DNA from: Planctomycetales bacterium
GTDB lineage: Bacteria; Planctomycetota; Planctomycetia; Isosphaerales; Isosphaeraceae
Assembly (NCBI GenBank): GCA_027451885.1
Contig: DAIDHX010000194.1
Span: 1-38,106, forward strand
Reading direction: 5' to 3'
Length of the DNA: 38,106 bases
This document shows, piece after piece, positions 3,390 through 38,106 of the stretch. Made by a program: the position numbers and the translations under genes. Below the pieces are notes generated by a model. That model saw only the letters and a program-made list of their open reading frames with translations, did no database searches and had not been told where the DNA came from. Positions within the stretch are counted from its first letter, which is position 1. Every line of letters begins with the position of its first letter.

Positions 3390-3599
3390 CGCTGATTCCT
3401 CAATTGCCGTCCAGGCTCGTCGGTTCGTGATCAGACTCGAAATCAGTATCGCCGATCGCGCCACCGTTGGCGACCCACGCAATCTCTCGCCGCGGCCGGC
3501 TTTTTCGTTGCCGGCCTGTCGTCCTTCGTTTCCACCCGCGTTTTATTGGAATGAACATGCCCAGCAGGCTACAGGTCGATCATCCAGCGGCCGGGCCGC

Positions 3600-7400: not shown

Positions 7401-7625
7401 CGCGCGGCGTGGGGCAAGTGCCCGGACGCGCGCGAGCGCGCGATTCTGGAAGCGCTTTTGCGCGAGCAAACGAATCTGTTTGCCGCCGATCCCTCAGGCG
7501 CGGGCCGGCTCCTAGCGGTTGACGGCGCGCCCATTCCCGCGAATCTCGATCGCACCAGGCTGGCGGCGATGACCGTGCTCGCGCAGGCACTGCTTGCGCA
7601 TGACGCATTTGTGATGAAGCACTGA
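4452..7625 (+). CDS. Secreted PSCyt1-DUF1549-LamG-DUF1553 protein
   Basis: 1057 residues from the ATG at 4452, which follows an AAAGGG ribosome-binding site; a TTG at 4434 is the only upstream alternative. A Sec signal peptide precedes a PSCyt1 cytochrome-c-like domain with CFSCH at 48-52. DUF1549 (PSCyt2) follows, with the hallmark [12 protein letters not shown] and a second CxxCH ([11 protein letters not shown]) at 337-341. Residues about 437-646 form a LamG/concanavalin-type insert ([20 protein letters not shown] to [11 protein letters not shown]), a fold that often binds carbohydrate. DUF1553 (PSD1) begins near 746 with [19 protein letters not shown]. The family is greatly expanded in planctomycetes and its biochemical role is not established; covalent haem is inferred from CxxCH. 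Unlike most relatives, no DUF1501 gene follows: the next gene is convergent, 25 bases away. Codons at 5480-5545 are strikingly AT-ended. Confidence 0.93.
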
Positions 7626-7650
7626 GGCGGCCAGGCCGGCGTCCTGGGCG

Positions 7651-10476
7651 TTACCAGGTGCCGCCGACGCTGAAATTGAAGTACTGCACACGATCCCCCT
7701 CCGCCCTGAGCACAGGGAAGGCGAGGTCGAACTCGAACGGCATGGGGCTGATGGGCAGCACGACCTTGAGGCCCGTGCCGATCGAGACGCGCATCTGGCT
7801 GAGCTCGTAATTCGGCGTGACGGTGCCGAAGTCGGTGAAGAAGATCTGGTGGAAGGTATCGCGTGCGTTCCAGGGGAACTGGTATTCGACGGAGGCCACG
7901 GCCATCATCACGCCGCCGGTGGGGACTCCGAAGGCGTGAGGGCTGACGGTGCGGTACTGGAAGCCGCGAAGGCTGCCGAAGTTACCGGCGAAGTAGCGTT
8001 CGTAGATGGGGGTGGATTCGGTGGTGACGCCGTAGTGGCCGCGGATGGTGAAGAATTGCTGGCCGCTGCCGTCGGGCCGGTGGAAGGTGGGAATGTGCAC
8101 GCGCCCCTCGGCGTCGAATTTGGCCCAGGTGAAGCTGCCGAATCCTTCCTCGGTTGAAAGCTGGAGATACTGCCCCTTGGTTGCCATGAAGGGGCTGTTG
8201 CGGTTGTCGAATCGAATGCTGGGCTTGATCGAGAAGAGAGAGGTGTAACCATTGGCCGCGAGATAGTCGGCGGGGGCAGGGGTGGCGTAACCGAAGAAGT
8301 CGACTTCTTCCGCCCGGATGCGCAAGTCAGTGTACATACTTGTGCCGAGCTGGCGGCCGAACGCGAACGCTCCACCGCCGCGCCGCTCCATCCAGTTGAA
8401 GTAGTAGCGCTGCATGAGATAGCCGGTGGCCATGCCGCTGATCGGCAGGGTGAAGAGATACGGATCGCGCAGGCTGACCTGCATGAAGTTCACCCAGTTG
8501 CCTGCCTGGAGATTGATGCGGAATTCCTGGCCTCCGCCGCGGAACGCCATGCCATTGACGAGGTCGCTGAACGAGGTGGGCAGGCGTGTGATGTCGAAGT
8601 TTTTCTCGTAGATCATGATGTTGCCCATGATGCCCTGGAAGCTGTTCGCGCCCACGCCCACCATGAAGTTTCCGGTGGGAGCTTCCTCGACCGATGCGAC
8701 GACGTCAGCGAACGAGCGGTTGGGGAAGGGGTCGTTGCGATCGGGGGTGACGTCGGTCATGTTCATGCCGGGGATGCTGGGGAAGCTGCCCACGGGTTCG
8801 CCGGTTCCGAGCGGAGCAGGGCCGACGCGCGGCGGCGCCGGGCGTCTGGGGGGTAGCGCCGGCAAGCTGGGCGTCGCTCCGCCAGCGGCGGGGGGCGAGT
8901 CGACCTGGGGATCAAACGCATTGCCGCCGAAAGGGCCGATCCCGGGCGCAGCGGGCTCGGCGGTCGTCGCAGGCGCTGGCTCAAGCGCAGGCGCGGCGGG
9001 CGTGCGATCGTCTCCGCCCGGGTCCTGCATGCGGGCCTGGGTTGTCTCCCCCAGAAGCGGCATCATCACATCGCCGTGCGGCTTATCCCACGGCCGCTCG
9101 TCGACGATCTTGATATCGATCTGTTTCCCCTTCTGGGGATCGTTCATGAAATAGCCCAGGTTTTGCAGCCGGCGGCGGAAGAGTTCAATGCGGTTCTTGT
9201 CGAGAATCTCCCCAGGCAACAACCCCGCCTGCACCGCCTCGCGGCGGATCACCTGATCCCGGGTGCGGTTGTTGCCCTCGATGCGAAGCTCGCCAAGCGT
9301 GAACGGCTCGTGCTCCTCGATCCGGTAAACCAGATCGACGACGCCAAGCTGGTTGGTAAACCGCGGCTCGCTCACAATCTGGGCCTTGATGTAACCGAGC
9401 TCGTTGTACTTGATCAGCATCCGCTGCTTGTCGGCGTCGCGCACGCCCAGCATGAACGGCTTGCCCGAATGCAGCTCCAGATCCTTCTTGAGCTCCTCGG
9501 ACTTGAGCCGGGTGTTTCCCTCGAGAAGGATGTCGCGCACGCGGTACTGCGTGCCTTCGGAGATCACGAAGGTCAGGTTGATCTTGCCGTCGTCCGCGGG
9601 GCGCGTGACGGGCGTGACCTTCACCTCAAAGAAGCCGTTGGCGTAGTAATAATCGATTAGCTTCTGGCGATCCTCGTCGAGCATCTCGCGCTGATAACGC
9701 CCGCCCAGGAGGCCGAGAATCGGCTTGCGGACCGTGATTTTGGTGTGGAGCGTGGCGTCGGACGCGAAGACGTTCCCCTTGAACGCGATTTCGCCAAGTT
9801 CCTGCTTGGGGCCCTCGAAGATCTCCATGACGATCTCGAGCTCGCCTGGCTCGCCCCCCTTGATGAGCTTGACGGAGGCGTGCTCGTAGCCTTTCTCCTG
9901 ATAGAGCCGCTGGATCTGGGCGACACTGATGCGGGTGTGGTTGGGATCCGCGCGATTGCCGGCCTTGAGGCCCGTGAGCTCCTCGATGTCCTTGAGCTTT
10001 ACGCCTCTGCGCCCCTTGAATTCCACGGACTTGATGATGGGCATCTCCTGGACGCGGAAGATCAGGTTGTACTTGCCGCTTTTGGGGGGGGATTCCTCGA
10101 AGTAATAGGCGACTTCGGAGAACCACTTGGTGCGGTAGAGGCTTTTCAGATCCGCCTCAACGCGATCCTGATCGAGCCTCTGACCTGCGCGTGAAAGGAG
10201 CTTGGCCTTGATCTTGTCGGAAGTGATCGAGGAGTTTCCCTCGAACAGGATGGCGGCGATGGTTCCTTCAGGAAAGCGATCGGTCTGAGCGCTTGCGGTT
10301 GTGGCTGAGATGAGGAAGAGGGCGACGAGATGCGCGGTAGTTGCAAGCGAGTTTTTGCCCTTGAGTCTGAAGGGGTGCGTCTTTCGGGCAGGCGCAGCGC
10401 ACGCGTTGAGCGTGGCGGCTTGCCGCGTCTCGATCCCCCTCCGCGCTCTCAAGCCGGGGCCATCCATCCGTGCCAT
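7651..10476 (-). CDS. bamA: BamA/Omp85 outer-membrane assembly protein with long POTRA-barrel linker
   Basis: 941 residues from the ATG at 10476. Five POTRA domains are countable, beginning at IAAILFEGNSSI, IKSVEFKGRRGV, LGEIAFKGNVFA, VRDILLEGNTRL and LGELRIEGNNRT. A 16-strand-type barrel follows, with LRGFQYR as the (V/I)RGF lid-lock motif and a C-terminal Trp (FSVGGTW), as in outer-membrane barrels. It should insert beta-barrel proteins into the outer membrane. Between POTRA5 and the barrel-entry EEAPTGNF lies a Pro/Ala/Gly-rich stretch of about 135 residues (about 8694-9100) absent from proteobacterial BamA. The start is uncertain: the hydrophobic signal core (TTAHLVALFLISATTASA) lies about 45 residues in. 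ATGs at 10497 and 10467 and a GTG at 10656 are also in frame, and none has a strong ribosome-binding site. Confidence 0.93.
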   Translation of the reverse strand: MARMDGPGLRARRGIETRQAATLNACAAPARKTHPFRLKGKNSLATTAHLVALFLISATTASAQTDRFPEGTIAAILFEGNSSITSDKIKAKLLSRAGQRLDQDRVEADLKSLYRTKWFSEVAYYFEESPPKSGKYNLIFRVQEMPIIKSVEFKGRRGVKLKDIEELTGLKAGNRADPNHTRISVAQIQRLYQEKGYEHASVKLIKGGEPGELEIVMEIFEGPKQELGEIAFKGNVFASDATLHTKITVRKPILGLLGGRYQREMLDEDRQKLIDYYYANGFFEVKVTPVTRPADDGKINLTFVISEGTQYRVRDILLEGNTRLKSEELKKDLELHSGKPFMLGVRDADKQRMLIKYNELGYIKAQIVSEPRFTNQLGVVDLVYRIEEHEPFTLGELRIEGNNRTRDQVIRREAVQAGLLPGEILDKNRIELFRRRLQNLGYFMNDPQKGKQIDIKIVDERPWDKPHGDVMMPLLGETTQARMQDPGGDDRTPAAPALEPAPATTAEPAAPGIGPFGGNAFDPQVDSPPAAGGATPSLPALPPRRPAPPRVGPAPLGTGEPVGSFPSIPGMNMTDVTPDRNDPFPNRSFADVVASVEEAPTGNFMVGVGANSFQGIMGNIMIYEKNFDITRLPTSFSDLVNGMAFRGGGQEFRINLQAGNWVNFMQVSLRDPYLFTLPISGMATGYLMQRYYFNWMERRGGGAFAFGRQLGTSMYTDLRIRAEEVDFFGYATPAPADYLAANGYTSLFSIKPSIRFDNRNSPFMATKGQYLQLSTEEGFGSFTWAKFDAEGRVHIPTFHRPDGSGQQFFTIRGHYGVTTESTPIYERYFAGNFGSLRGFQYRTVSPHAFGVPTGGVMMAVASVEYQFPWNARDTFHQIFFTDFGTVTPNYELSQMRVSIGTGLKVVLPISPMPFEFDLAFPVLRAEGDRVQYFNFSVGGTW

Positions 10477-11112
10477 GAGCCCTCGTTTCCGAACCATTCC
10501 CGCCCGCGCAAGCCAGGAATCGCTTGCCAGGCGTTCGCCACCACGGTCGCGTGAAGCTGAAACCTCACGCTCGAGGAACCCGCATGATCGCCCACGCGCC
10601 CGTTTCGATCCCTGGCGCGCTGGCCGCGATTTCCTCGCGACGGCTTCGATTTCCACTCCGTGAGCTCAGGCCCGGCCCGCCTTCCATGGCTTCTGGACCA
10701 ATACCTGCCCGACTCACCGCGTTCGACGTGATGGCGGGGTTCTACCCAACGGTTCCACAACTGACAACCCCGGATCGCATCACGATCCCGCTTGAGCACT
10801 TTTTCAAAGAGAGGCAAAAACGATCTGAAGTTGCTCATCTTTCAAGAGTTGCGCGCGTGCTCCAAATCCGACCTCGAAATGCGGGATCTCGCCTCCGGAG
10901 CCTTCCAGGATCGGTTTTTCCGCGGCAGGCCGCTGCGCAGGCATCCGGGCGGCCAGGCGAACGGGGGTCGTCTGAGCCCGCATTTTGAGGCCAGGGTGTT
11001 GAACCAGGATTCGACACCCCCCATGATAGGTGCCGGAATCGTTCCGAAATTCCCCCCACGCATCGGTCTCGTTCGACACGCCTTCCCAGTCACGCCAAGA
11101 GAGATTGATATC
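10477..11112. other. 636-bp divergent intergenic region
   Basis: This lies between the chosen bamA start and the DUF1080 start. Frames are open on both strands, including the upstream extensions of both genes, but their translations are Arg/Pro/Ser-rich and match no family I recognise. It should hold divergent promoters and leaders. I could not pick convincing -35/-10 pairs, terminators or a riboswitch. If bamA starts at the GTG at 10656, about 180 bases of it would be coding. Confidence 0.5.
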
Positions 11113-19538: not shown

Positions 19539-19722
19539 TTGGGGAAAGTGACGCGGTCCGACCCTCCTCTTGCCGAGTGCCTCCCGCCCTGTTCGTGCGG
19601 GCCCGCCAGGGTGCTTCTGGCAAGGGATCGCCCTGCCGGGTGCTGATTCTCCCGGGCGAGTGCGATTCGGGTTTGGAGCGGCCCTGGACCCTGCTTCGAC
19701 GACCGAGCCCACGGTGACGATC

Positions 19723-22700
19723 ATGATCGAGCGGAGGATGGCACTCGGGCTGGCATTTTGGGTCGCGCTGGGGTTGGCATCGGCTGGGCACAGGCCAGCC
19801 GTTGCGGATCCGCCTCGTCCTGGGGCAAGCCACCCCAGGCCCGTCGATTTCGCGCGGGAAATCCGCCCGATCCTGGCCGAGAACTGTTTCGCCTGCCACG
19901 GCCCTGACGACAGGGCACGCAAGGCCAAGCTGCGGCTTGATGTCAAGGAAGGCGCGCTCGCCGCGCTTGGCAGCGGCGATCGGGCGGTCGTGCCCGGCAA
20001 GCCCGATGACAGCACGCTCGTTTTTCGGGTCGAGAGCGACGACGCCGAGCTCCTGATGCCGCCGAAGGCAAGCGGCAAGCAGCTTGCCCCTGATCAGAAA
20101 GCCCTCCTCAGGCGCTGGGTTTCCGAAGGGGCGAAATGGTCGTCGCACTGGGCCTTCGACCCGCCTCGCAAGGCCGATCCTCCCGCCGTGAAAAACGCAA
20201 CCTGGGGGCGGTCGCCTCTGGACCGCTTCATCCTCGCCAGACTGGAAGCCGAGGGGCTTTCTCCCTCCCCCGAGGCCGATCGCGAAACCCTGATCAGGCG
20301 CGTGACCTTCGACCTCACCGGCTTGCCCCCCACGATTGAGGATGTCGATCGCTTCCTCGCCGATCGCGCTCCGGGCGCTTACGAACGCGCGGTCGATCGA
20401 CTGCTCGAGTCGCCGCGTTACGGCGAGCACATGGCACGCTACTGGCTCGACGCCGCGCGCTATGGCGATACGCATGGCCTGCACCTCGATAATTACCGCG
20501 AAATGTGGCCCTATCGCGACTGGGTTGTGCGGGCGTTCAACCGCAACCAGCCCTTCGATCGATTTCTGATCGAGCAGCTCGCGGGCGACCTCCTGCCGAA
20601 CCCGACGCTCGACCAGCTCGTGGCGACCGGTTTCAATCGCTGCCATGTCTCCACGAGCGAGGGGGGCTCGATCGAGGAAGAAGTGTACGTGCGGAACGTG
20701 GTCGACCAGGTCGATACGAATGGCACGGTGCTGCTGGGGCTCACCACTGGCTGTGCCCGTTGCCACGACCACAAGTACGACCCGATCCGCATGAAGGACT
20801 ACTACCAGCTCTTCGCCTTCTTCAACAACATCGACGGCCCCGCGCTCGACGGCAATTCCGCCAAGTGGGCGCCCATCGCGGCCGTGCCCACGATCAAGGA
20901 CAGGCTTGCCATCGTTGCGGCCGACGCCGAGATCGCCGCGCTCAAACGAACGCTGGAGGACGAAACGGCGAAGCTGGCCGCCCGTGCGCCTCTTGCCGCC
21001 GAGCCGGCTGAGTCCGAGATTCCGGCCCGCGCCGATTATGTGTGGATCGACGATGCCGCGCCCCGCGGCGCGAATCCGCAAGGCGACAGCCCCTGGCAGT
21101 TCGTCTCGCGCCCGGATTATCCCGTGAAGAGCGGTTCGGGCGCGCTCAAGCTTACGGCCCAGGGGCGAATGCAGCGCTTCTTTGAGACCGCCGCCGCCAA
21201 GCTTGTCATCGGCGAGGGGGATGCGCTGTTCGCGCACGTTTACATCGATCCGATTCATCCGCCGAAGGAGATCATGCTCCAGTGGCACACCAGGGAAGGC
21301 TGGATGCGGCGGGCTTACTGGGGCGAGAATCGCATCGACTGGGGCAAGGATCAAAGTGTTGAGCGCTTGAGAATGGGTGACTTGCCGCCGACTGGAGAAT
21401 GGGCGCGGCTCGAGATTCCGTGCGCCCGGCTCGCGCTTGCCCCTGGCTCCGTGATCGACGGCTGGGCGTTCACGCAGTTTGACGGAACCGCGTACTGGGA
21501 TGCGGCCGGCCTGCGCACATGGACCCCGCAGCCGGAACAGAAGTACGCCTCCTTTGCGGCGTGGATTCGCGCCCGCAAGGCCGACAAGGGAGCAGGGCTC
21601 TCCGATCCCGACAAGGCGATCCTGGCACTCGAACGCTCGAAGCGCACAGCCGATCAAGTTCGCTCGCTCTACGCGCAGTACCTGAGAACGGGCTCGGCCA
21701 AAACGGCGGCCGCGCTCGAACCAATCGTCGCCAAGCTGAAGGCGGCTGAGGCCAAACGCAAGGCGCTCGACGATCAGGTTGCCACCACGCTGGTCTTCCG
21801 GGAACGGAGCGGCGAGCCGAAGCAGGCCTACATGCTCAAGCGCGGGGAATACGACCAGCGCGGGGACAAGGTTGGCCGCGCGATTCCCGCGTTCTTGCCG
21901 CCGCTGCCCGCGGGTGCGCCTGTGAATCGGCTGGGTTTCGCGGAATGGCTCACCGCGCCCAATCATCCGTTGACGGCCCGAGTGGCCGTGAATCGCCTCT
22001 GGCAGCAGTTTTTCGGCGTGGGTCTGGTGAAGACTGCCGAGGACTTCGGCGCTCAGGGGGAGCCGCCGTCACATCCGGAGCTGCTCGATTTTCTGGCGGT
22101 CGACTTTCGCGAGCACGGTTGGAACATCAAGCGGCTCGTGCGCACCCTTGTGACGAGTGCAGCGTATCGCCAGTCGGCGAAGATCACGCCCGAAAGGCTG
22201 GCGAAGGATCCGGCGAATCGGCTCGTTTCGCGCGGGCCGCGATTCCGGCTCGACGCCGAAATGCTCCGCGATCAGGCCCTGGCGGTGTCAGGGCTTCTGG
22301 TGGAGTCCGTGGGCGGCCCGAGCGTGAAGCCGCCGCAACCGCCGGGGTTGTGGGAAGCAGTTGGTTACTCAGGAAGCAACACCGCCCACTTCCAGCCCGA
22401 CGCGGGACCGGCCAAGGTCCATCGCCGCAGCGTTTATACGTTCTGGAAGCGGACAGCGCCGCCGCCGCAGATGAGCACCTTCGACGCCCCTTCACGCGAA
22501 TCGTGCCAGGTGCGCAGAGAACGCACCAACACACCGCTCCAGGCCCTTTTGCTGCTCAACGAGGAGCAATACATGGAAGCCGCGCGGGGGCTCGCACGGC
22601 GGGCCTGGGCCGAGGGGGGCTCGACGGCGGAGGACAGGCTTGTCTACATGTTCCGGCTGGCGACCGGCCGCCGGCCCGACTCGAGCGAGGCAACCGAGCT

Positions 22701-22863
22701 TGGCCGAACCCTGCGCGACCTGCTCGATCATTACCGCACCCGCAGCGCGGAGGCACGCCAGGTCGCCGGCGAAGGCTCGCCCGGCGATCCGTGCAATTTC
22801 GCGGCCTGGACGCTGCTCGGCAACGCCGTGCTCAATCTCGACTGCGTGATCACGCGCGGCTGA
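19723..22863 (+). CDS. Secreted PSCyt1-DUF1549-DUF1553 protein with a carbohydrate-binding-like insert
   Basis: 1046 residues from the ATG at 19723; an ATG at 19738, directly after GCGGAGG, is also possible. A signal peptide is followed by PSCyt1 with CFACH at 55-59, DUF1549 with [12 protein letters not shown] and [11 protein letters not shown] at about 344-348, then DUF1553 from about 733 ([20 protein letters not shown]). Between them, about 436-603, sits a beta-rich insert ([13 protein letters not shown] to [11 protein letters not shown]) that resembles a jelly-roll carbohydrate-binding module and is unrelated to the LamG insert of the paralogue at 4452. The CxxCH motifs predict covalent c-type haem, so it should be periplasmic or surface-exposed. 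A DUF1501 gene follows after 26 bases, the usual partner arrangement, and a glycosidase-like gene follows that. Biochemical role unknown. Confidence 0.93.
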
Positions 22864-22889
22864 TCGCGCGAAACCGGAGCGAACCGCCC

Positions 22890-24350
22890 ATGCACCCCTT
22901 CGAAGACCTCGCCGCCGCGATGACCCGCCGCCACTTCCTGGCCGGCTCAGGGCTCTCACTGGGCTCCGCCGCGCTCGCCAGCCTGCTCGGCAGCCAGGCA
23001 CACGCCGGTGGATCCCCACGACCATCCGGAGGCTTGCCCGGCTTGCCCCACTTCGCGCCGAAGGCCAAACGCGCGATCTATTTGCATATGAATGGAGGTC
23101 CATCTCAGATCGATCTCTTCGACTACAAGCCGAAGATGAACGACTGGTTCGACAAGGATCTGCCCGAGTCGGTCCGCAAGGGGCAGCGGCTCACCACCAT
23201 GACCTCCGGCCAGTCGCGATTTCCGATCGCGCCTTCGAAGTACAAGTTCGCGCGCCACGGCAAGGCCGGCACCTGGGTGAGCGAGCTCTTGCCCTGGACA
23301 GCCAGAATCGTCGACGAGATCGCGCTCGTGAAGACGGTCTGGACGGAAGCGATCAACCATGACCCGGCCGTGACCTACATCTGCACTGGCAACCAGCTTC
23401 CGGGACGCCCGAGCCTGGGCTCGTGGCTCTCTTACGGCCTGGGCTCGCTCAACGAGAATCTGCCGGCGTTTGTGGTGATGACTCCCTCCTGGAGCAGCAA
23501 GGTCGACGCCCAGGCGCTTTATAACCGGCTCTGGGGCTCGGGCTGCCTGCCCACGCAATATCAGGGGGTCGCGCTTCGAGCCAAGGGCGATCCGGTGCTC
23601 TTCCTTTCGAATCCAGGCGGGGTCGACGCGCAGGCGCGGAGACGCGTGCTCGACGCCGTCAGCCGGCTCAATCATCACGAGTTCGAGACGCTCGCCGATC
23701 CGGAGACGCAAGCGCGCATCGCCCAGTACGAAATGGCCTTCCGCATGCAGACCTCGGTCCCCGAGCTCACCGATATTTCAAACGAGCCCAGGCACATCCT
23801 TGAGCTCTACGGCCCCGATGTGCACAGGCCTGGTTCGTTCGCGCGGTCGTGCTTGCTGGCGCGGCGGCTGGCCGAGCGCAACGTTCGTTTCACGCAGATC
23901 TTCCATCGCGGCTGGGACCAGCACGGCAACATGGCCGGCGACCTGCCCGCGCAGTGCAAGGACGTCGATCAGGCCACCTACGCGCTCATTGTTGATCTGC
24001 GCCAGCGCGGGCTGCTCGACGACACCCTGGTGATCTGGGGCGGTGAATTCGGGCGCACGATTTACTGCCAGGGCAAGCTCACGCGTGACAATTACGGCCG
24101 CGACCACCATCCCAAGTGCTTCCCGATCTGGATGGCCGGCGGCGGTATCAAGCCCGGCATCGTGCACGGCGAGACGGACGACTTCAGCTACAACGTCGTC
24201 TCCAACCCCGTGCACATTCACGACGTCAACGCCACGATCCTGCACTGTCTGGGGATCGATCATCGCCGGCTGAGCGTGAAGTTCCAGGGGCTTGACCTGC
24301 GCTTGACCGGAGTCGAGGAACATCATCCGGTGAAGGCAATCCTGGCGTAA
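22890..24350 (+). CDS. Tat-exported DUF1501 protein (alkaline phosphatase/sulfatase-like fold)
   Basis: 486 residues. The ATG at 22890 has GGAG about ten bases upstream. A twin-arginine motif ([11 protein letters not shown], Arg13-Arg14) directs folded export. The family's conserved blocks are present: [81 protein letters not shown] and [16 protein letters not shown]. The Asp/His pattern resembles metal ligands of the alkaline-phosphatase superfamily, but no activity is established for the family. It is 26 bases behind the PSCyt gene and 33 bases ahead of the glycosidase-like gene, so co-transcription is likely. DUF1501 proteins normally pair with PSCyt/PSD1 proteins, implying a shared envelope complex or pathway. 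Confidence 0.94.
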
Positions 24351-24383
24351 GCGTTTACCATCACCTTGAGAAGGCAACACGCG

Positions 24384-26819
24384 ATGACGATTCGCCGCTG
24401 CGCGCTTCTGGCTGTATTTTTGGTTGCGCCGTTGGGCACGCTTCGGGCACAGGGAGTCGAGCACGACTTCACGCAGGCGGCCGTGGTCGCGCCTCAGGGG
24501 CTGGATAAGCCCGAGCAAGAGGCGATTGCGCTCCTTGTTGATCGGGTGCGGGAGCGAACGGGCATCGTGTGGGAGCGTGTGGGGGCGATGCCCAGCGCGG
24601 GTCGCGCTTCGATCGTGGTTGTTCCGGCCCGTCTGGCGGACGCCGTCGCCGCTGGGCTGGGAGTTTCCAGCTCCGCGCTGAAGGCGGGGCTCAAGCCAGA
24701 GGGCTATCGGATTGAATCGCTTGCGAGCGCTCGCGCGCCTCGGCTTGTGATTGTCGGCGCGGATGCGCGAGGCGTGCTTTTCGGCGTGGGCCGGTTCCTG
24801 AGACTGATCCACACACGCGCGGGGCGGGCCGTGCTCCCAGGCGCAATCAAGCTGGTTGATGCACCCGAGTACCCCATCCGCGGCCAGCAGCTTGGCTATC
24901 GCCCCAAGACCAATTCCTACGACGCCTGGGATCTCGATCAGTGGAAGCGCTATATCGCGGACATGGCGATCTTCGGCGTGAACACCATCGAGCTTCTGCC
25001 TCCGCGTAGCGACGACGCGGCCAAAAGCCCGCATTTTCCCCGGCCGCAGCTCGAGATGATGACCGGGATGTCGCGCATTTGCGCTGATTATGGCCTCGAT
25101 GTCTCGGTGTGGTATCCCGCGATGGATCCCGATTACACCGACCCGGCGACCGTGGCGCGTGCGCTTGAGGAATGGGCGAGCGTGCTCTCGGTGTTGCCCC
25201 GGCTCGACGACGTCTTCGTGCCCGGCGGCGATCCCGGCCATACCCGTCCGGGCGTGCTGCTCGCGCTTCTAGAAAAGCAGGCCGCGAACATCAGGCGCAT
25301 CCATCCCAGGACGCGCATGTGGGTGAGCGCTCAGGGCTTTTCTCAGCAATGGGTTGAGGAATTCCTGGCGCTGCTCGCGGCCGAGCCGGCGTGGCTCTCC
25401 GGCGTGGCCTACGGGCCGCAAACGCGGTTGCCGCTTCCCGAATTGCGCAAGCGCGTCCCCGCGCGATATCCCATCCGCGACTATCCCGATATCACCCACA
25501 GCCTGCGCTGCCAGTATCCCGTGCCCGACTGGGACGTGGCTTTTTCTCTCACGCACGGCCGCGAAGGCATCAATCCCCGCCCCTTCGACGAGGCCGCCAT
25601 CTTTCACGCTTTCGCCCGGGAAACCAGGGGGTTTGTCACCTACAGCGAAGGCTGCAATGACGACGTGAACAAGATCGTCTGGAGCGCGCTTGGCTGGAAT
25701 TCGAAGGCGTCGCTCGTGGAGACGCTCCGTGAATACGCGCGAGTGCTGGTCGGGCTGGAACCAGGCGCGGCGGACGGCTTTGCACAGGGGCTCTTCGCCC
25801 TGGAGCGTAACTGGAAAGGCGCGCTTCTCAACAACGACGAGGTCGAGACCACGCTCGCGCGCTTCCGCGCCATGGAATCGCACGCATCGCCCTGGACGCT
25901 GCGCAACTGGCGGTTCCAGCAGGCGCTCTATCGCGCCTATTACGACGCCTATGTGCGCAGAAAGCTGATCGCGGAGACCGAGCTTGAAGCCCGCGCGCTC
26001 GATCGCCTGCGGCAGGCGGCCGCCATGGGCGCACTCGCCGCGGTCGAGGAGGCCCAGGCGATCCTGCGGCAGGCGAATGAGCTCCCAGCACCAGACCTGC
26101 GCAGCCGCGTCTTCGAGCTGGCCGAGGCGCTCTTTCAAAGTATCGGCATGCAATTGAGTGTGAACAAGTACCAGGCGATCGCCATCGGCCGCGGGACGAC
26201 GCTCGACACGATCGATACCTCGCTTAATAACTCCGAGTGGCTCGAGAATCGGTTCGCGGCGATCCGCAAACTGCCCGCCGAGGCGGATCGGCTCCGTGAA
26301 ATCTCCGCCATTTTGAACTGGACGAACCCCGGTCCTGGCGGCTTTTACGACGATCTGGGCAATCCCCGCAACCGGCCCCATCTCATCCTGGGCGCGCCTT
26401 ACGAGGTCGACCCGGCCGGCTTCCGGGGAACACGCACTGGCTTTGACCAGGATCTGGGAGCGCGGCGGTCCTGGTGCCGGCATGCCGCGGGATACTACGA
26501 TGCGCCCGTGCGGATGCGTTACGGCGGCCTTGATCCCAGCGCCCAGTACCGGGTGCGTGTGGTCTACACCGGGGATATGTTCCAGGTGAAGCTGCGGCTC
26601 CAGGCGGACGCCGGCATTGAGGTCCATCCCTTCCTGAAGAAGCCGCGCGACCTGGCGCCGCTCGAGTTCGCCATCCCACGCCAGGCGACGGCCGACGGCG
26701 CGCTCGAGCTTTCCTGGTACCCCGAACCGGGGCGCGGCGGCAATGGTCGCGGCTGCCAGGTGGCTGAGGTCTGGCTGATGCGTGCAGAAAACGCGGGCGC
26801 TGCTCCCGCCCATCCCTGA
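24384..26819 (+). CDS. Secreted glycoside-hydrolase-like protein with GH20/GH67-type N-terminal domain
   Basis: 811 residues. The ATG at 24384 has GAGAAGG about ten bases upstream and opens a Sec signal peptide ending near TLRAQG. Residues about 25-155 resemble the alpha/beta domain that precedes the catalytic barrel in GH20, GH67 and GH84, with ADARGVLFGVGRFLRLI. A TIM-barrel-like region follows: KRYIADMAIFGVNTIELL, DDVFVPGGDPGHTRPG near 275-290, and FVTYSEGCNDDVNKIVW with Glu422. Acidic residues in the last two motifs are catalytic candidates. A helical region (about 480-620) and a C-terminal beta-sandwich complete it. I cannot assign a GH family or substrate; uronic-acid or amino-sugar glycans are reasonable guesses. 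It is 33 bases downstream of DUF1501, suggesting that the PSCyt/DUF1501 pair also acts on glycans. Confidence 0.75.
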   Translation: MTIRRCALLAVFLVAPLGTLRAQGVEHDFTQAAVVAPQGLDKPEQEAIALLVDRVRERTGIVWERVGAMPSAGRASIVVVPARLADAVAAGLGVSSSALKAGLKPEGYRIESLASARAPRLVIVGADARGVLFGVGRFLRLIHTRAGRAVLPGAIKLVDAPEYPIRGQQLGYRPKTNSYDAWDLDQWKRYIADMAIFGVNTIELLPPRSDDAAKSPHFPRPQLEMMTGMSRICADYGLDVSVWYPAMDPDYTDPATVARALEEWASVLSVLPRLDDVFVPGGDPGHTRPGVLLALLEKQAANIRRIHPRTRMWVSAQGFSQQWVEEFLALLAAEPAWLSGVAYGPQTRLPLPELRKRVPARYPIRDYPDITHSLRCQYPVPDWDVAFSLTHGREGINPRPFDEAAIFHAFARETRGFVTYSEGCNDDVNKIVWSALGWNSKASLVETLREYARVLVGLEPGAADGFAQGLFALERNWKGALLNNDEVETTLARFRAMESHASPWTLRNWRFQQALYRAYYDAYVRRKLIAETELEARALDRLRQAAAMGALAAVEEAQAILRQANELPAPDLRSRVFELAEALFQSIGMQLSVNKYQAIAIGRGTTLDTIDTSLNNSEWLENRFAAIRKLPAEADRLREISAILNWTNPGPGGFYDDLGNPRNRPHLILGAPYEVDPAGFRGTRTGFDQDLGARRSWCRHAAGYYDAPVRMRYGGLDPSAQYRVRVVYTGDMFQVKLRLQADAGIEVHPFLKKPRDLAPLEFAIPRQATADGALELSWYPEPGRGGNGRGCQVAEVWLMRAENAGAAPAHP

Positions 26820-27108
26820 CCATCGCTTCAGGTGTTAAAACCGCCAGGGTTGGCCCACTCCGGCGGGTTGAGCCGCTTCCATGCTGGTAATGGCAGGGGC
26901 TGATTGATTATTATTTAACATGCGCTGGTCGAAGGGCGAGTCTTCCTCCAGCCAATCCGCGCTGCTTGCCTGACACCGGGGTCGTACACGCGATCCCGGT
27001 CGTGAGATCCTCCCCCGCGGGTCGTGCCGGGATGCTGAGTTGCGACGGCGTTCGCGACAGCAAGCATCTGGTCCAGGCCCCGAATTTCGCCAGCCGTCGA
27101 GGTTGATC
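26820..27108. other. 289-bp intergenic region before the giant PSCyt fusion gene
   Basis: No gene is supported here. A short AT-rich island at 26900-26921 (including TAACAT at 26916-26921) interrupts GC-rich sequence and is the likeliest promoter location, but no good -35 matches it. The break suggests the 27109 gene may have its own promoter. The bases just before its ATG (GAGGTTGATC) include a plausible ribosome-binding site, GAGG. Confidence 0.4.
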
Positions 27109-32229
<5,121 letters not shown>

Positions 32230-32285: not shown

Positions 32286-33554
32286 TCAACCCCCTACGGC
32301 GATTCGCGACCAGGCCTGCGCTGCTCGACCCCAGCCCATCGTCTCGCAGATCTGGGCCAATCGCTTCGCCGCCGCGCTGCGCTCCGCTGGTTTGCCGCCG
32401 CCGGCCCGTTCCAGCTCGAGAAATGTGGCGTATGCACCCGCGATCTCGCTACGTGCGTCGTTCATGCGCTTCGTCCGCGCGCGATGCTCGGTCGCCTTCG
32501 CCCGCTCGCCCAGCCGATCTTCGACCGACGCCAGCCGGTAGTAATACTTCGGCGTGTAAGGGTGCAGCTCGATCGCCTTCTCGAGATCGTGCCTCGCCTT
32601 TGCCCAGTCTTGCTGCTTCTCCGCCGCGGTGGCGCGGAAAAACCAGGTCTCGGCCATCTCGTCCGCGCTGCGGGGCGGATGGCCAAGAACCTCCAGGAAG
32701 CGATCCAGCTCTCCCTGCTCGCTCAGCATCGTCAGGTAGTCACGCCAGGCGCGGGCGTCCTCGGGCGAGCGCTTGAGACATTCGCGGAATTGCGCGTCCG
32801 CCTCGGCCCTGCGGCCCGTCGCGGCATAGGCGCGACCCAGCGCGCGGCGGGCATTGGCGTCGCTGGGATCTGCCTCAAGATAACGCATGAGGTGCGGAAT
32901 CGCTTCCACGTGGGCCACACGCTCGAGCTCAGGACGCAAACGCGACATGAGCCAGCCGGTCTGCTCCCCGCCGGTGGTTCGGTCATATGCGCTCCAGATC
33001 ACCGGAAAGGCGTCTTCCCAATCGTCCTCGATCGCATAGAGCTTGAGCAGCTCCTGGCTCGCGTCCAGAAAATACTCAGGTGGAGTGGGGTGCAGGGGAT
33101 CGTGATGCACCAGCTTGAGCCAGGCGGTTTCCGCCTCGCGCGCGTGATCCACCTGAAAGAACGATTGACCCGCTCGGAACATCGCCTCGGAATACTGGCT
33201 TGACCATTCCGGGACCTTGATCAGGGTTTGCGCGCAGGCCAGCAGGTCTCCCTGACCGGCGAGTGTTCGCGCCAGCGTAACGAGGGCGACGGCGTCTCGC
33301 GGCCGGGCTCGGAGTCGCTCACGCAGGAGTTGCTCGGCCGCGCGGTATTCTCCCTGGCCGAGCAGCCGCGCCGCAGTCTCGACCCGGGGCACCTCTCGCG
33401 TATCGTGCAGATACCACCAAACATTAAACGCAACCAGGCCCGCCAGGCTTGTGCTTGCCGCAAGCCAGCGTAGCCATGCACCTGGGTTACGCTGGCTGGG
33501 GCGAGAATGGTTGGGCGTTTCCTCGTGTGTTTCCGCCATGGTCGCCTGGGTCAT
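32286..33554 (-). CDS. Membrane-anchored TPR protein
   Basis: 422 residues from the ATG at 33554, with AGGA about 11 bases upstream; an ATG at 33539 is also possible. The frame opens 45 codons earlier, but that stretch overlaps the intergenic gap and the end of the upstream gene. One hydrophobic segment (about 27-49, WLRWLAASTSLAGLVAFNVWWYL) should anchor it in the inner membrane with the rest outside. The remainder is helical TPR repeats, clear in ANARRALGRAYAATGRRAEADAQFRECLKRSPEDARAWRDY and in WAKARHDLEKAIELHPYTPKYYYRLASVEDRLGERAKA (each seen here as adjoining repeat units). TPRs mediate protein contacts; no enzyme domain is seen. It lies 62 bases behind a second TPR gene on the same strand, probably one operon. 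Confidence 0.88.
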   Translation of the reverse strand: MTQATMAETHEETPNHSRPSQRNPGAWLRWLAASTSLAGLVAFNVWWYLHDTREVPRVETAARLLGQGEYRAAEQLLRERLRARPRDAVALVTLARTLAGQGDLLACAQTLIKVPEWSSQYSEAMFRAGQSFFQVDHAREAETAWLKLVHHDPLHPTPPEYFLDASQELLKLYAIEDDWEDAFPVIWSAYDRTTGGEQTGWLMSRLRPELERVAHVEAIPHLMRYLEADPSDANARRALGRAYAATGRRAEADAQFRECLKRSPEDARAWRDYLTMLSEQGELDRFLEVLGHPPRSADEMAETWFFRATAAEKQQDWAKARHDLEKAIELHPYTPKYYYRLASVEDRLGERAKATEHRARTKRMNDARSEIAGAYATFLELERAGGGKPAERSAAAKRLAQICETMGWGRAAQAWSRIAVGG

Positions 33555-33616
33555 CGAACGCGGGTCCTGGAGCCTAAGCCCATCGCCGGATGGGCGTAGC
33601 GCGCTAGCACATGATC

Positions 33617-34978
33617 CTACTTGAGCCGTTCCAGCGCGGCCATGCTGGTTGGATCGCCGGGCGCGTCCTCGAGAATGAGCCTGTGCCACGCTCGTGCTTC
33701 GTCCTTTCGCCCCATTTTCTCACGCAATTCCGCAAGCTGGTGATAGAGCTCGAGCTCGGGCCTAAGACCGAGCGTCCGAATCTGCACCGCCTTTTCATAT
33801 ACAGCGCGAAGCTGTTTGAACGCGGCCTGGAATTCACCAAACTCGCGGGTGATGCGTTCGGCCTCGTGGCGATTTCCGGCAACATAAAGCGCCTGACGCA
33901 GGCGGTATGAGATCACGCCGTCCTGGGGATCGAGCTCCCGGGCGCGGCGATATGCGGCAATGGCGCGGGGCCAGTCGCGGGCGTTCTGGGCCACGATTCC
34001 CTCGATCTTGGCGATCCGTGGTTCGTTGCGGAATCGAGGCGGTAAACGGTGAAACTCACGCTCCAGCCGGGCGATGTCATGGCCGTCGTCGAGCCCGCTG
34101 AGCCAGGAATCCCAGGCGAGCAGCGAGTCGGGGTATTGCTCAAGCGCACGGGCCAGAATCGCCAGACCTTCTTCGGGTTGGCTGTTGTGGATGTGGGCGA
34201 GACCGAGAATCACCGCGGTCTGGAGATTGGCGGGGTCGAGGGCGTAAAGCGGAGTAAAAAGCTGCACCAGCGACCCCGGCGCGACCTTGTCGATGTCGAT
34301 CCGCGCGAGTTCGAGCAAAACGCGCACGCGGTCGCGAGGATCGGGCTCGACTTCGTGCATCCGCATTCCCAGGCGGTGTGCTTCTTCCACGCGGCCTTCG
34401 AGATCGAGCAAGTCGAGAAGCGCCCAGCCGGCCTCGGGCGTGGTGGGATCGATCCGGAGCGCCTCGTTCCAGCATGGTTCAGCCAGGTCGTATCGCGCTT
34501 GCTGGTAGCGGGCCTTGCCTTCGAGGAACTTGATGGTGGCGGAAGTCCGTCGATTTGCGGGGTGGATCCGCGCGAGCGCCTCGAGCGCCCGGGAAGGGTC
34601 GGCGTGCGACGGCTCGGTCGAGAGCTCGGCCAGTAGCAGCCAGCCTGTCTCGCTGGTTGGATCACGCTCCAGGAACCGTTCGAGAAGACCGGCGGCCTCG
34701 GCGAATCGCATGCCCCGGGCCGCTGCGCGCACCTGATCGAGCGTGGGCGTGCCAGGGCGCGCCCAACCTGCAATCAACGCGCCCAGGCCCACAAGCAGGA
34801 TCGACGCGGCCATCACCGCGAGCAGCGCGTCTCGAATCGAGGCGAAAGGTCTGATCACACGCCTATTCTCTGCACCCAGGCCAGATCTGCCAAGTGATCT
34901 GGGACCCGCTTGTCTCGGGATGAAAAACTCGGCATCCTCAGGAAATGCACTGCCATTCTCGGTTGCCCGATCACCCAT
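33617..34978 (-). CDS. Membrane-anchored TPR protein, divergent start overlaps neighbour
   Basis: 453 residues from the ATG at 34978, which has AGGA six bases upstream. A hydrophobic segment lies at about 50-72 (ALLAVMAASILLVGLGALIAG), followed by TPR repeats to the C-terminus, for example RFAEAAGLLERFLERDP, RYDLAEPCWNEALRIDP and WPRAIAAYRRARELDP. The start codon shares bases with the start codon of the plus-strand TPR gene (CATG at 34976-34979). A GTG at 34858 (Val41) would remove the unusual 40-residue tail before the membrane segment and leave about 118 bases for divergent promoters; I keep the ATG because of its ribosome-binding site, but the choice is open. Probably co-transcribed with the TPR gene downstream. 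Role unknown. Confidence 0.87.
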   Translation of the reverse strand: MGDRATENGSAFPEDAEFFIPRQAGPRSLGRSGLGAENRRVIRPFASIRDALLAVMAASILLVGLGALIAGWARPGTPTLDQVRAAARGMRFAEAAGLLERFLERDPTSETGWLLLAELSTEPSHADPSRALEALARIHPANRRTSATIKFLEGKARYQQARYDLAEPCWNEALRIDPTTPEAGWALLDLLDLEGRVEEAHRLGMRMHEVEPDPRDRVRVLLELARIDIDKVAPGSLVQLFTPLYALDPANLQTAVILGLAHIHNSQPEEGLAILARALEQYPDSLLAWDSWLSGLDDGHDIARLEREFHRLPPRFRNEPRIAKIEGIVAQNARDWPRAIAAYRRARELDPQDGVISYRLRQALYVAGNRHEAERITREFGEFQAAFKQLRAVYEKAVQIRTLGLRPELELYHQLAELREKMGRKDEARAWHRLILEDAPGDPTSMAALERLK

Positions 34979-34979
34979 G

Positions 34980-36284
34980 ATGATTCCTGGCCGATTGCGC
35001 CCTCGCGGGCGTTCTGGATTTCAACTGGCCCGCGCTGGCCGCTGGCTGGTTGCGGCGGCCCTGGCGCTTGTGGTTGGGGTCGTGCTCGCGCGGTACATGA
35101 TGCACGAGCGCAAGGTCGTGGCCATCACCTCGGCGATCGAGAATGGGCGGCTTGCCGAGGCGTCCGCCGCCATCGAGCGCTGGCTGGAATCCGAGCCGCG
35201 ATCGGCTGACGCCCACTTTCTGGCCGCCCGGCTGGCCTGGGCTCGCCAGGACCTTGCAACCGTGGATCGAGAGATCGGGCTCGCCCGCGCGCTTGGCCAT
35301 TCTCCCGCCGAGGTCAATCGGCTCTGGGGACTCCTGCTTGCACGGGGCGATCAGAAAACTCAGGCAGAGAATCTGCTGCGAGAGACGCTGAAATCCACCA
35401 CGGTTCCGGACCCCGAGGTCTCCGAGGCGCTTGCACGACTCTACCTGGGGAGCTATCGGTTGCACGAGGCGGCGGCCCTGCTCGACGACTGGGCCAGGCG
35501 CGAGCCCCAGAACGCGCGTCCGGTGCTGTTGCGAGCCGAGGCCGACCTGCGGCTGGGTACACCCGCGGAAACGGTGATCGAACGCTACCGCGAAGCGCTC
35601 AGGCGCGATCCCTCGCTCGATCGTGCACGGCTGGGCCTGGCGGAGCAGCTCTGGATCAACAAGCACTACGACGAGGCCTCGCACCATTACTGGCTCTATT
35701 TGGAAACGCATCCGGACGATCTTCAGGCCCTGATAGGCGCGGGTGAGACGGATCTCGAACTTGGTGAATTCCAACGAGCTGCGCGCAGGCTTGATCGGGC
35801 CGTTACGCTCGCCCCGCGCGACCCGGTCGCCCTGGCGGCCCGGGCCGCGCTCGAAGAACGCCAGGGACGCTTCGCAGACGCACTCGCCTTTCTTGACCGC
35901 GCCATCGCCGCCGATCCCTTCGACACCCAGGCCTCGTATCGCCGATCCGTCGCCCTTGCGAGTCTCGGTCGCAGAACTGAAGCAGAAGCGGAACGCAGCC
36001 GCTTCGAAAAACTCAAGGCCGATCACGAACAGTTCGTTCGTTTGAGCCAGGAACTCCGCGAGCATCCCAACCAGGTCGAATTGAGGGCCAGGGCCGCGGT
36101 TTGGCTCATGCAACATGGCCATGCCGCGGAAGCCCTCGATTGGGCCAGGTTGATCCTCGCCAGCCAGCCCAACCATCCCGCCATCAACCGAATGCTCGCG
36201 GATTACTACAAATCAAAGGGCGAGCTCGGTCTGGCGAACCTGTATGAAGCCCAGGCCGCCGCGAGCAGCAAGTCCCAGCCGTAA
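34980..36284 (+). CDS. Membrane-anchored TPR protein
   Basis: 434 residues from the ATG at 34980; adjacent ATG 34977 and an earlier ATG at 34920 are in frame, and none has a clear ribosome-binding site. An Arg-rich N-terminus precedes one membrane segment (about 22-38, WLVAAALALVVGVVLAR). The rest is TPR-like: LAEASAAIERWLESEPRSADAHFL, HEAAALLDDWARREPQNARPVLL, FQRAARRLDRAVTLAPRDPVALA and FADALAFLDRAIAADPFDTQAS, each within a run of similar 34-residue units. It faces away from the minus-strand TPR gene at 34978 and converges on the next TPR gene with only 18 bases between stop codons. Orientation and anchor match its three neighbours, suggesting one family of scaffold proteins. Confidence 0.87.
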   Translation: MIPGRLRPRGRSGFQLARAGRWLVAAALALVVGVVLARYMMHERKVVAITSAIENGRLAEASAAIERWLESEPRSADAHFLAARLAWARQDLATVDREIGLARALGHSPAEVNRLWGLLLARGDQKTQAENLLRETLKSTTVPDPEVSEALARLYLGSYRLHEAAALLDDWARREPQNARPVLLRAEADLRLGTPAETVIERYREALRRDPSLDRARLGLAEQLWINKHYDEASHHYWLYLETHPDDLQALIGAGETDLELGEFQRAARRLDRAVTLAPRDPVALAARAALEERQGRFADALAFLDRAIAADPFDTQASYRRSVALASLGRRTEAEAERSRFEKLKADHEQFVRLSQELREHPNQVELRARAAVWLMQHGHAAEALDWARLILASQPNHPAINRMLADYYKSKGELGLANLYEAQAAASSKSQP

Positions 36285-36302
36285 GACCGAGCCCCCAGTC
36301 GT

Positions 36303-37394
36303 TTAGAGGGCGTAAGCCGGCCAGGTGGTCGTGAGCGGATCAGAGGGCGCGTCCTCCCGCAGGGTCTTGATCGTCTCCTGCACCAGGTTCGCATCCTTTT
36401 CGCGCCCAAGCTGGCGATAGGCGACCGCCAGGTTGTAGAGCACGGAATACGACGCCGGCGCGATCGCCTTAGCTCGATCGAGATATCCAAGCGCAAGTTC
36501 TGGTTTGTGCCTCTGGAGCTCAAGCTTGGCCAGGTTGATGAGCGGGCCGCTCGACGCGGGATTGAGCTCAAGAGCGCGCTTGAACGGTCGCTCTGCCTCC
36601 TCGAGCTTGCCCTGGAGCAAGTACGTGTTCCCGATGGCGTTCCAGAGCATCGCGTCCGGGTGCGACTCGACCTCCTTGAGCAGCAAGGCCCGGGCCGATT
36701 CAAGCTGGCCGGTTGCTGCCAGGTCGTCCGCGTATTGACTGAAGAAGAGCACGCGTGGCAGGGGCATTTCCTTGAGTTCGGGATCGAGCGCAAGCACCTT
36801 CGCGAAATCCTGGCAGGCCAGCTCGCGGTTCTTTTCGTTGTGGTGCAAGACGCCGCGCAAGGTTGCGCCCAGAATGGCGCCTCCGGGCGTGTGCTCGAGC
36901 CGATCCGCGAGCGCACGAAGGGCAGGCTTGTCGTCGAGCGCAAGCTCAACAGCCGCCAGCCTGCGCATCGCCGCGAGATTGTCGGGGGCGAGCGCGAGAA
37001 TCTGGTTGAAGGCTGAGACAGCCTGGCCAGGCCGTGGTCCCCGCGCGAGCGCGTAGGCCCGAAGTTGCAGGTCCGAAAGCTCGAGCCTGCCAGCCCTGGT
37101 GTAGTAAGGTTCGGCCTGCTCCGATCGATCCATCCGGCTGTAACACCGCGCCACGAGAAGCGCAGCGTCGCGGCTCCAGGGACGGCGATCGAGATGGTCG
37201 AGCGCCCGCGCGAGGGAAGTCTCCAGGTCGCCCAGCCGATAGGCGCGCGTGGCGTCCTCAAGGCCGGACGAGCGTGTGAGATTCCAGGCGGACATCGCCA
37301 GCAAACCAGCGAACACCGCCAGGAAGGCCAGACGCAAGGTCCAGGCGCCGCGCTGGCGTGTGATCCTGGAACGTGTGCTCACGATCATTTGCAT
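36303..37394 (-). CDS. Membrane-anchored TPR protein
   Basis: 363 residues from the ATG at 37394; the ATG at 37388 is an alternative and neither has a good ribosome-binding site. A short basic N-terminus is followed by one membrane segment (about 18-37, TLRLAFLAVFAGLLAMSAW). TPR units follow, including AYRLGDLETSLARALDHLDRRP, PGQAVSAFNQILALAPDN, LEEAERPFKRALELNPAS and PELALGYLDRAKAIAPAS. The start lies only about 14 bases beyond a strong hairpin that follows the DUF1559 gene. Read-through from DUF1559 would therefore be attenuated, or this gene has its own promoter. No catalytic motif is visible. Confidence 0.87.
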   Translation of the reverse strand: MQMIVSTRSRITRQRGAWTLRLAFLAVFAGLLAMSAWNLTRSSGLEDATRAYRLGDLETSLARALDHLDRRPWSRDAALLVARCYSRMDRSEQAEPYYTRAGRLELSDLQLRAYALARGPRPGQAVSAFNQILALAPDNLAAMRRLAAVELALDDKPALRALADRLEHTPGGAILGATLRGVLHHNEKNRELACQDFAKVLALDPELKEMPLPRVLFFSQYADDLAATGQLESARALLLKEVESHPDAMLWNAIGNTYLLQGKLEEAERPFKRALELNPASSGPLINLAKLELQRHKPELALGYLDRAKAIAPASYSVLYNLAVAYRQLGREKDANLVQETIKTLREDAPSDPLTTTWPAYAL

Positions 37395-37408
37395 ACAAAG
37401 AAATGAGA

Positions 37409-37450
37409 CTGCACGACCCGCCGGGACTGGAGGCCCAGCGGATCGTGCAG
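37409..37450 (-). terminator. Hairpin terminator or attenuator after the DUF1559 gene
   Basis: A perfect 8-base inverted repeat, CTGCACGA (37409-37416) with TCGTGCAG (37443-37450), continues inward with four and then three more pairs, each after one mismatch, and closes on an eight-base loop. Read on the minus strand, the stem is followed by TCTCATTTCTTT, a moderately T-rich tail. It lies about 32 bases beyond the DUF1559 stop and just before the next TPR start, so it could terminate, attenuate, or mask that gene's ribosome-binding region. Confidence 0.6.
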
Positions 37451-37482
37451 GGAACTCTGAGCTCAAAGCGCGGTGCGCGAGA

Positions 37483-38106
37483 TCAAAGCTGGTCGGAGCT
37501 CACCACTTCGCCGTTGTCGGGCGTGGCGATGGCATACCAGGAGAGGTAGCTCACGCTGTTCTTGATGAACCGCACCGAACCGTCCATGAACAGCAAATTG
37601 ACGCCGCCGGGGTGATTCGACGACGCGTTGACGAGCGTGATCGTGGCTCGGCTGTCTTCACGCTGATCATTGTAGTCGCAAGCGAACCGGTTGGGCAGGT
37701 TCGTATGCGAGTAGATCATCGTGCCGCCGTAGGCCCACCACTCGCCTTTCCACCCCCAGCTTTGATTGCCCGTTGTGGCCTGCACGCTGGCGCACATCTG
37801 AGCGAACTGGTAGTCGGTCGGGAAGGCATCCGAGTTCGCGCCCAGGTAATAGACCATGCCCAGGCCGTTCCTGCCTGGGAAGGCGCCGGGACCGCGAACC
37901 CACTCGCTGAAGATGGCGGTGTTGCTCGTGCCGTCGGTGAAGGTGTCGATACTCACCTGCCGCGACTTGATGGCACCGTCCCACGAGCTGAGCACGTATC
38001 CAGGACCGTTCATGACCCAGTTGCCGCTATCGGGGCTGGCGCCCGGCAGGACGCCGTTGATTCGGCGGTTGAGACCGACGTTCGAGACGTAGCTGCTCGA
38101 ACCGAC
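37483..38106 (-). CDS. DUF1559-family protein, N-terminus cut by window edge
   Basis: The visible part is the C-terminal 207 residues; the frame is open to base 38106, beginning VGSSSYVSNVGLNRR. DUF1559 hallmarks are clear: FTDGTSNTAIFSEWVRG, and near the C-terminus NHPGGVNLLFMDGSVRFIKNSVS, the family's His-to-DGSV motif. Complete members start with a type IV pilin-like prepilin signal and a hydrophobic helix (pseudopilin-like), which would lie beyond the window. They are expanded to dozens of copies per genome in planctomycetes and are presumed to be exported or pilus-like surface proteins. An internal ATG at 38013 is unlikely to be the start because homology continues upstream of it. It is followed by a strong hairpin, then a TPR gene on the same strand. 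Confidence 0.93.
   Translation of the reverse strand, partial: VGSSSYVSNVGLNRRINGVLPGASPDSGNWVMNGPGYVLSSWDGAIKSRQVSIDTFTDGTSNTAIFSEWVRGPGAFPGRNGLGMVYYLGANSDAFPTDYQFAQMCASVQATTGNQSWGWKGEWWAYGGTMIYSHTNLPNRFACDYNDQREDSRATITLVNASSNHPGGVNLLFMDGSVRFIKNSVSYLSWYAIATPDNGEVVSSDQL

Follow-up and report, generated by a model that had tools for sequence, protein, structure and literature searches.

We analyzed a window of 38,106 nucleotides, which is the entire contig DAIDHX010000194.1 (C194) of a Planctomycetales bacterium of the family Isosphaeraceae (genome of 6.18 Mb in 316 contigs). Its right end holds four genes for tetratricopeptide repeat (TPR) proteins, TPR1 to TPR4, beside a gene for a pilin-like protein of the DUF1559/SBP_bac_10 family. 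Reading frames and profile scans placed these genes where an earlier reading, made from the sequence only, had put them. TPR1 (32286..33554, minus strand) encodes 422 aa, its start having been set by alignment with congeners, and TPR2 (33617..34978, minus strand) encodes at most 453 aa, its true start being uncertain. TPR3 (~34920..36284, plus strand) encodes at most 454 aa, with an internal ATG at 34977 as the likelier start, and TPR4 (36303..37466, minus strand) encodes 387 aa from a TTG, an internal ATG start being possible. Each product consists of an N-terminal anchor followed by TPR repeats, which form a superhelix in TPR2 and TPR4. The DUF1559 gene (37483 to beyond 38106, minus strand) is cut by the contig end, leaving the C-terminal 207 aa with the H-X9-DG motif in the window; it ends 16 bases before the start of TPR4 on the same strand. 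TPR3 is located between TPR2 and TPR4 on the plus strand, and TPR1, TPR2, TPR4 and DUF1559 are all on the minus strand.

The last 141 bases of the window (37966..38106) overlap exactly with the end of contig C150, the only contig matching over that length. C150 supplies the N-terminus of DUF1559 with the prepilin motif GFTLIELLVVIAIIAVLIALLLP (L009 7787-8455). The sequence-only reading had proposed extending to the right to see other components; in window orientation, C150 adds CRTAC_A (plus strand), CRTAC_B (minus strand), an anchored metallo-beta-lactamase-fold (MBL) protein (minus strand) and a DUF1501 protein (minus strand). CRTAC_A carries FG-GAP repeats followed by UnbV_ASPIC and matches cartilage acidic protein 1 (PDB 9etn), and CRTAC_B has the same domains behind a longer N-terminal part. 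Both domains scored above their cut-offs in both proteins, which are thus classed as CRTAC1-like. In the congener G002, one unbroken contig (C433) carries DUF1501, an 800-residue protein, PSCyt-WD40, TPR1, TPR2, TPR3, TPR4, DUF1559, CRTAC_A, CRTAC_B, MBL and DUF1501. Because this single contig has the same gene order and orientation as C194 plus C150, we consider the join sound.

Only TPR models matched TPR1 to TPR4, many of them above the Pfam cut-offs. None of the four passed the NCBIfam cut-offs for the TPR equivalogs PrsT, PilW, Tgl, LapB, PgaA and BcsC; as all scores were far under these values, identity with a known equivalog was rejected. PrsT was the best NCBIfam match for all four proteins, as would be expected of a part in surface polysaccharide or lipopolysaccharide export comparable to PrsT, PgaA, BcsC and LapB. 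However, the PrsT cut-off is 312 bits and the four proteins reach only 61-80, a similarity explained by the repeats they have in common; none of the scanned cluster genes was recognised as coding for a glycosyltransferase, synthase or exosortase. The probability of such an export role is, in our view, very slight. The scaffold proteins PrsT, LapB, PilW, Tgl and FlcA have a single anchor or signal, and the window proteins resemble them in this and in repeat type but differ in scoring far under the family cut-offs and in having other partners.

Hydropathy analysis detected one N-terminal hydrophobic segment of at least 1.6, and no second, in TPR2, TPR3 and TPR4. The segment of the window TPR1 was below 1.6, and the TPR1 proteins of the two congeners have values of 1.9 and 2.3 at this position; the single-anchor plan proposed for all four is therefore retained, with a weak anchor in this copy of TPR1. 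Lysine and arginine exceed aspartate and glutamate ahead of the segment (TPR1 +1, TPR2 +2, TPR3 +6, TPR4 +5), which predicts an extracytoplasmic location for the TPR parts. In the confident AlphaFold models of TPR2 and TPR4 (mean pLDDT 89 and 89), a single long helix at the N-terminus precedes the helix pairs. A fold search with TPR2 was uninformative: all its hits were TPR superhelices of a generic kind (O-GlcNAc transferase, BBSome, APC/C), and their TM-scores were low. The profiles of TPR1 and TPR2 align over their full length (hhalign, 384 columns, E 1.7e-49), and these two proteins therefore look like old duplicates; the remaining TPR profile comparisons were also significant, but repeats alone could explain them.

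We then compared the cluster across related genomes. Both congeners searched (G001 and G002) have DUF1559 and the same four TPR genes, the latter with unchanged order and orientation relative to one another, which indicates that the arrangement is more than chance. TPR1 to TPR4 are 50-61% identical to their counterparts there (TPR1, 60%). Of 45 family genomes, 24 have a TPR2 orthologue and 23 a TPR4 orthologue, in each case spread over 14 of 21 genera. Across the class, a TPR2 match of at least 220 bits was obtained in 23/45 family genomes versus 1/252 others; in that sole outside genome (G049), a CRTAC gene adjoins the TPR2-like gene.

Twenty-nine TPR4 loci were fetched on a TPR2 or TPR4 match, and counts over them thus test the adjacency of DUF1559, not that of TPR2 and TPR4. 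In 25 of these loci, a same-strand DUF1559 gene lies directly upstream of TPR4, no more than 450 bases away, so that the conserved neighbourhood whose absence would have spoken against the sequence-only reading does exist. The usual gene order is DUF1559-TPR4-[CRTAC_A]-TPR2-TPR1, and several loci have 4-base stop-start overlaps among the TPR1, TPR2, TPR4 and CRTAC_A genes. The check on conservation of the four-TPR arrangement, which the sequence-only reading had proposed, gave a mixed result: the neighbourhood is kept in both congeners, but the four TPR genes occur together in five loci only (OWN, L030, L031, L079 and L083), and the conserved unit is larger and different. The constant unit is DUF1559, TPR4 and TPR2 (with TPR1), usually accompanied by CRTAC1-like proteins or a TPR-cytochrome. 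The mixed orientation described earlier is present and can be recast as a conserved trait, TPR3 being opposite in strand to its TPR neighbours in all six loci having such neighbours. At the seventh TPR3 locus, L093, the fetched stretch contains no neighbouring TPR gene; there (4896-10320, G003) the TPR3 orthologue lies beside two DUF1559 genes, apart from the other TPR genes of the G003 cluster. Extra neighbours seen in G006 (an elongation factor and a DUF3179 protein) were not seen at any further locus and were disregarded.

Several loci add CRTAC_B or an anchored protein in which seven CxxCH motifs come after TPR repeats. Such cytochromes were found beside or near DUF1559 at L034 10524-12374, L033 15608-17530 and L035 9580-11841. 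The cytochrome of the sister clusters would suit a redox module, in which TPR arms hold CRTAC and haem proteins in place so that electrons can pass across the envelope. Planctomycete cytochrome domains also flank the window cluster, and in other bacteria, according to the portion of PMC12758564 consulted, a CRTAC1 gene adjoins hydrazine-synthase-like genes. No multihaem gene is in view in the window's own cluster or in those of several relatives, which counts against such a module, and we judge it decidedly unlikely.

The DUF1559 protein of the window scored 47 bits for PF07596 (cut-off 23.3) and 41.7 bits for H-X9-DG-CTERM (cut-off 19). Together with the prepilin motif on C150, these scores confirm the pilin-like character that the sequence-only reading had assigned to it: like other planctomycete DUF1559/SBP_bac_10 (PF07596) proteins, it has a prepilin-type N-terminus, a large C-terminal domain and the H-X9-DG end. 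The prepilin motif, and the matches of the G002 orthologue to pilins (geopilin, PilE, GspG), would also be consistent with a role of the TPR proteins in assembling a type IV filament or pseudopilus, comparable to that of PilF/PilW, Tgl and TadD, with DUF1559 as a special subunit and CRTAC carried or displayed. The direct co-orientation of DUF1559 and TPR4 agrees with this, as do PF00482 (platform) and prepilin peptidase genes elsewhere in the genome, on contigs other than those of the cluster. However, the PilW and Tgl scores are far under the curated cut-offs, and the window TPR proteins are predicted to be anchored in the inner membrane, whereas the known pilus helpers PilF/PilW, Tgl and TadD are outer-membrane lipoproteins. 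Pilus motor, platform and secretin genes were also not recognised among the annotated cluster genes, a result limited in that not every open reading frame was scanned and the ATPase and secretin were not searched for. Filament assembly is thus an unlikely function of these TPR proteins.

The DUF1559 copy of the window differs from the family at large in being a member of a group associated with TPR4 loci. In a DUF1559 tree of 60 rows, the 20 copies beside TPR4 were split from 17 other copies of the window's genome by one label change, compared with a mean of 12.5 changes for shuffled labels, the 23 rows in neither group being left uncounted. The split had a support of 92/83 and was recovered in 94% of bootstraps. 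As a control, 1 of 13 other TPR places in the window's genome was within 3 kb of DUF1559, namely a TPR-cytochrome. In four genomes with two clusters (G002, G003, G020 and G041), the two copies lie apart on both the DUF1559 and the TPR4 tree, and each is closer to copies from other genomes than to its partner in the same genome; the clusters therefore seem to be inherited as blocks. The idea that the DUF1559 group tracks the accessory gene was borne out in part only: four cytochrome loci form one DUF1559 clade (100/100), and the cytochrome loci L068, L073 and L083 fall elsewhere in the tree. Likewise, the layout with CRTAC inside the cluster is not a single group on the TPR2 tree.

CRTAC domains were also found fused to TPR domains. 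By following up weaker TPR2 matches, we found proteins some 1000 residues long, often encoded next to DUF1559, which carry an anchored TPR domain with a CRTAC domain behind it, the TPR part being a full-length TPR1/2-like domain. Among 20 fetched loci with such weaker matches, CRTAC is fused or nearby in 10, and another 4 have DUF1559 but not CRTAC; the share of fusions is not a rate, because the first seven loci were picked for long open frames. The window's genome encodes two TPR-CRTAC fusions, on C105 and C292, each beside DUF1559. A second DUF1559-TPR-CRTAC row of this genome lies at 696-6590 of L148 (G000:C153), where the TPR and CRTAC genes overlap by 4 bases.

In a phylum-wide search at E 1e-100, 116 of 292 genomes matched, mostly in the CRTAC part alone. 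Thirty of these loci were fetched; 18 matched the profile including its TPR part and were not used as a test. In 10 of the 12 matched essentially by the CRTAC part alone, a same-strand TPR gene adjoins, and of the remaining two, one has DUF1559 with a TPR-cytochrome-like protein and one has neither in view. The TPR proteins of the 10 loci have an N-terminal hydrophobic stretch of at least 1.6 in eight cases (L190 is cut by the end of the stretch). That TPR superhelices are paired with CRTAC propellers, and in many genomes joined to them in one protein, points to an envelope complex.

The genes might also be neighbours by descent only, without shared function. The strong cases are all within one family, in which repeat proteins and DUF1559 are abundant. 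On the other side, paralogous clusters seem to be inherited as blocks, membership stays while gene order varies, and fusions exist, with TPR-CRTAC pairing extending to genomes of the phylum outside the class. Neighbourhood by descent alone has, in our estimate, a small probability.

From these sequence comparisons, we propose that the four TPR proteins and DUF1559 are probably parts of one Isosphaeraceae envelope complex with the CRTAC propellers, at a probability of about 0.6. The proposal is based on the observed gene content, conservation, co-orientation, locus-specific DUF1559 group and TPR-CRTAC fusions. The N-terminal helix would fix each TPR protein in the cytoplasmic membrane, so that its superhelix is held, as predicted, on the outer side of that membrane. 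There, the superhelices may serve as a scaffold that docks the CRTAC1-like FG-GAP/ASPIC-UnbV proteins of the same locus and, in sister loci, the TPR-linked seven-haem cytochrome. DUF1559 would be a dedicated pilin-like subunit that positions or tethers the assembly after maturation by a prepilin peptidase whose gene lies elsewhere in the genome. The sequence-only reading had proposed a TPR scaffold for export or surface assembly; an extracytoplasmic scaffold is indeed the best reading, but nothing shows export or surface assembly.

Several points weigh against such a complex. Contact between any two of the products is our inference. DUF1559 genes are common, with 72 PF07596 matches in the window's genome, and four of the 29 TPR4 loci have no DUF1559 directly upstream (L084, with TPR2 between; L085, at a contig end; L074; L097). 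Neither DUF1559 nor CRTAC is nearby in 6 of the 20 weaker-TPR2 loci. Among the matches listed for three genomes (150 of 278 rows), any CRTAC lies within 5 kb of DUF1559 in 7 of 29 cases versus 2.0 by rotation (p 0.005), a modest enrichment. In addition, TPR2 has no orthologue at E 1e-15 in 21 of 45 family genomes, many of which are close to complete, and the complex is therefore dispensable.

A wider proposal is that DUF1559 paralogues are module-specific adaptors, each of a genome's dozens of copies serving one exported module. The module here would be an anchored scaffold of alpha-solenoids and beta-propellers, coat-like in its components, lying against the outside of the cytoplasmic membrane, and the window cluster would be the most elaborate form, among the loci compared, of a phylum-wide TPR-CRTAC unit. 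We advance this only tentatively and regard it as unlikely. The membrane-coat-like proteins of the PVC superphylum, in the sections of Santarella-Mellwig 2010 (PMC2799638) consulted, likewise combine alpha-solenoid and beta-propeller in Planctomycetes. Those have the propeller first and the solenoid second; here, the anchored solenoid comes first and the propeller is either placed behind it or encoded separately. The membrane-coat architecture was therefore rejected for these proteins, the order being reversed in the fusions and the partners being separate proteins in the window cluster. Compared with known CRTAC1-like proteins, CRTAC_A and CRTAC_B share the FG-GAP and UnbV_ASPIC domains and differ in being bacterial, membrane-anchored and paired or fused with TPR superhelices.

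DUF1559 is among the largest protein families of Planctomycetes. The consulted parts of PMC8567305 describe a large family recovered in detergent-soluble fractions of Tuwongella and say of its context only that signal-peptide genes often flank it. Excerpts of PMC10632474 report 68 paralogues in Planctopirus, two of them essential, and those of PMC2754498, PMC5352709 and PMC3909097 concern abundance and expression only. A link of DUF1559 or CRTAC with TPR genes was not found in the literature searched, from which subscription papers and preprints were largely missing, so that absence is not proven. The TPR-CRTAC-DUF1559 gene set appears undescribed, in agreement with the sequence-only reading, which had not recognised a described system. 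With a particular DUF1559 group linked to partners that can be named, the role of DUF1559 becomes testable.

To the left of TPR1, a row of plus-strand genes (19570-32229) encodes two PSCyt1/PSCyt2/PSD1 proteins, the second with WD40, and a DUF1501-like protein, and reaches up to TPR1; its last part is kept in G002 and not in G001. The gene next to TPR1 (27040..32229, plus strand; PSCyt1, WD40, PSCyt2 and PSD1) adjoins TPR1 in G002 and not in G001, and was not counted as core. An 817-aa protein at 24366-26819 (plus strand), with no Pfam match at E 0.001, is 70% identical in G002. Farther left, the window encodes an Omp85-type, BamA-like protein of 1001 aa with POTRA repeats (7651-10656, minus strand), and two adjoining long frames without a Pfam match (54-1808 and 1809-3395, plus strand).

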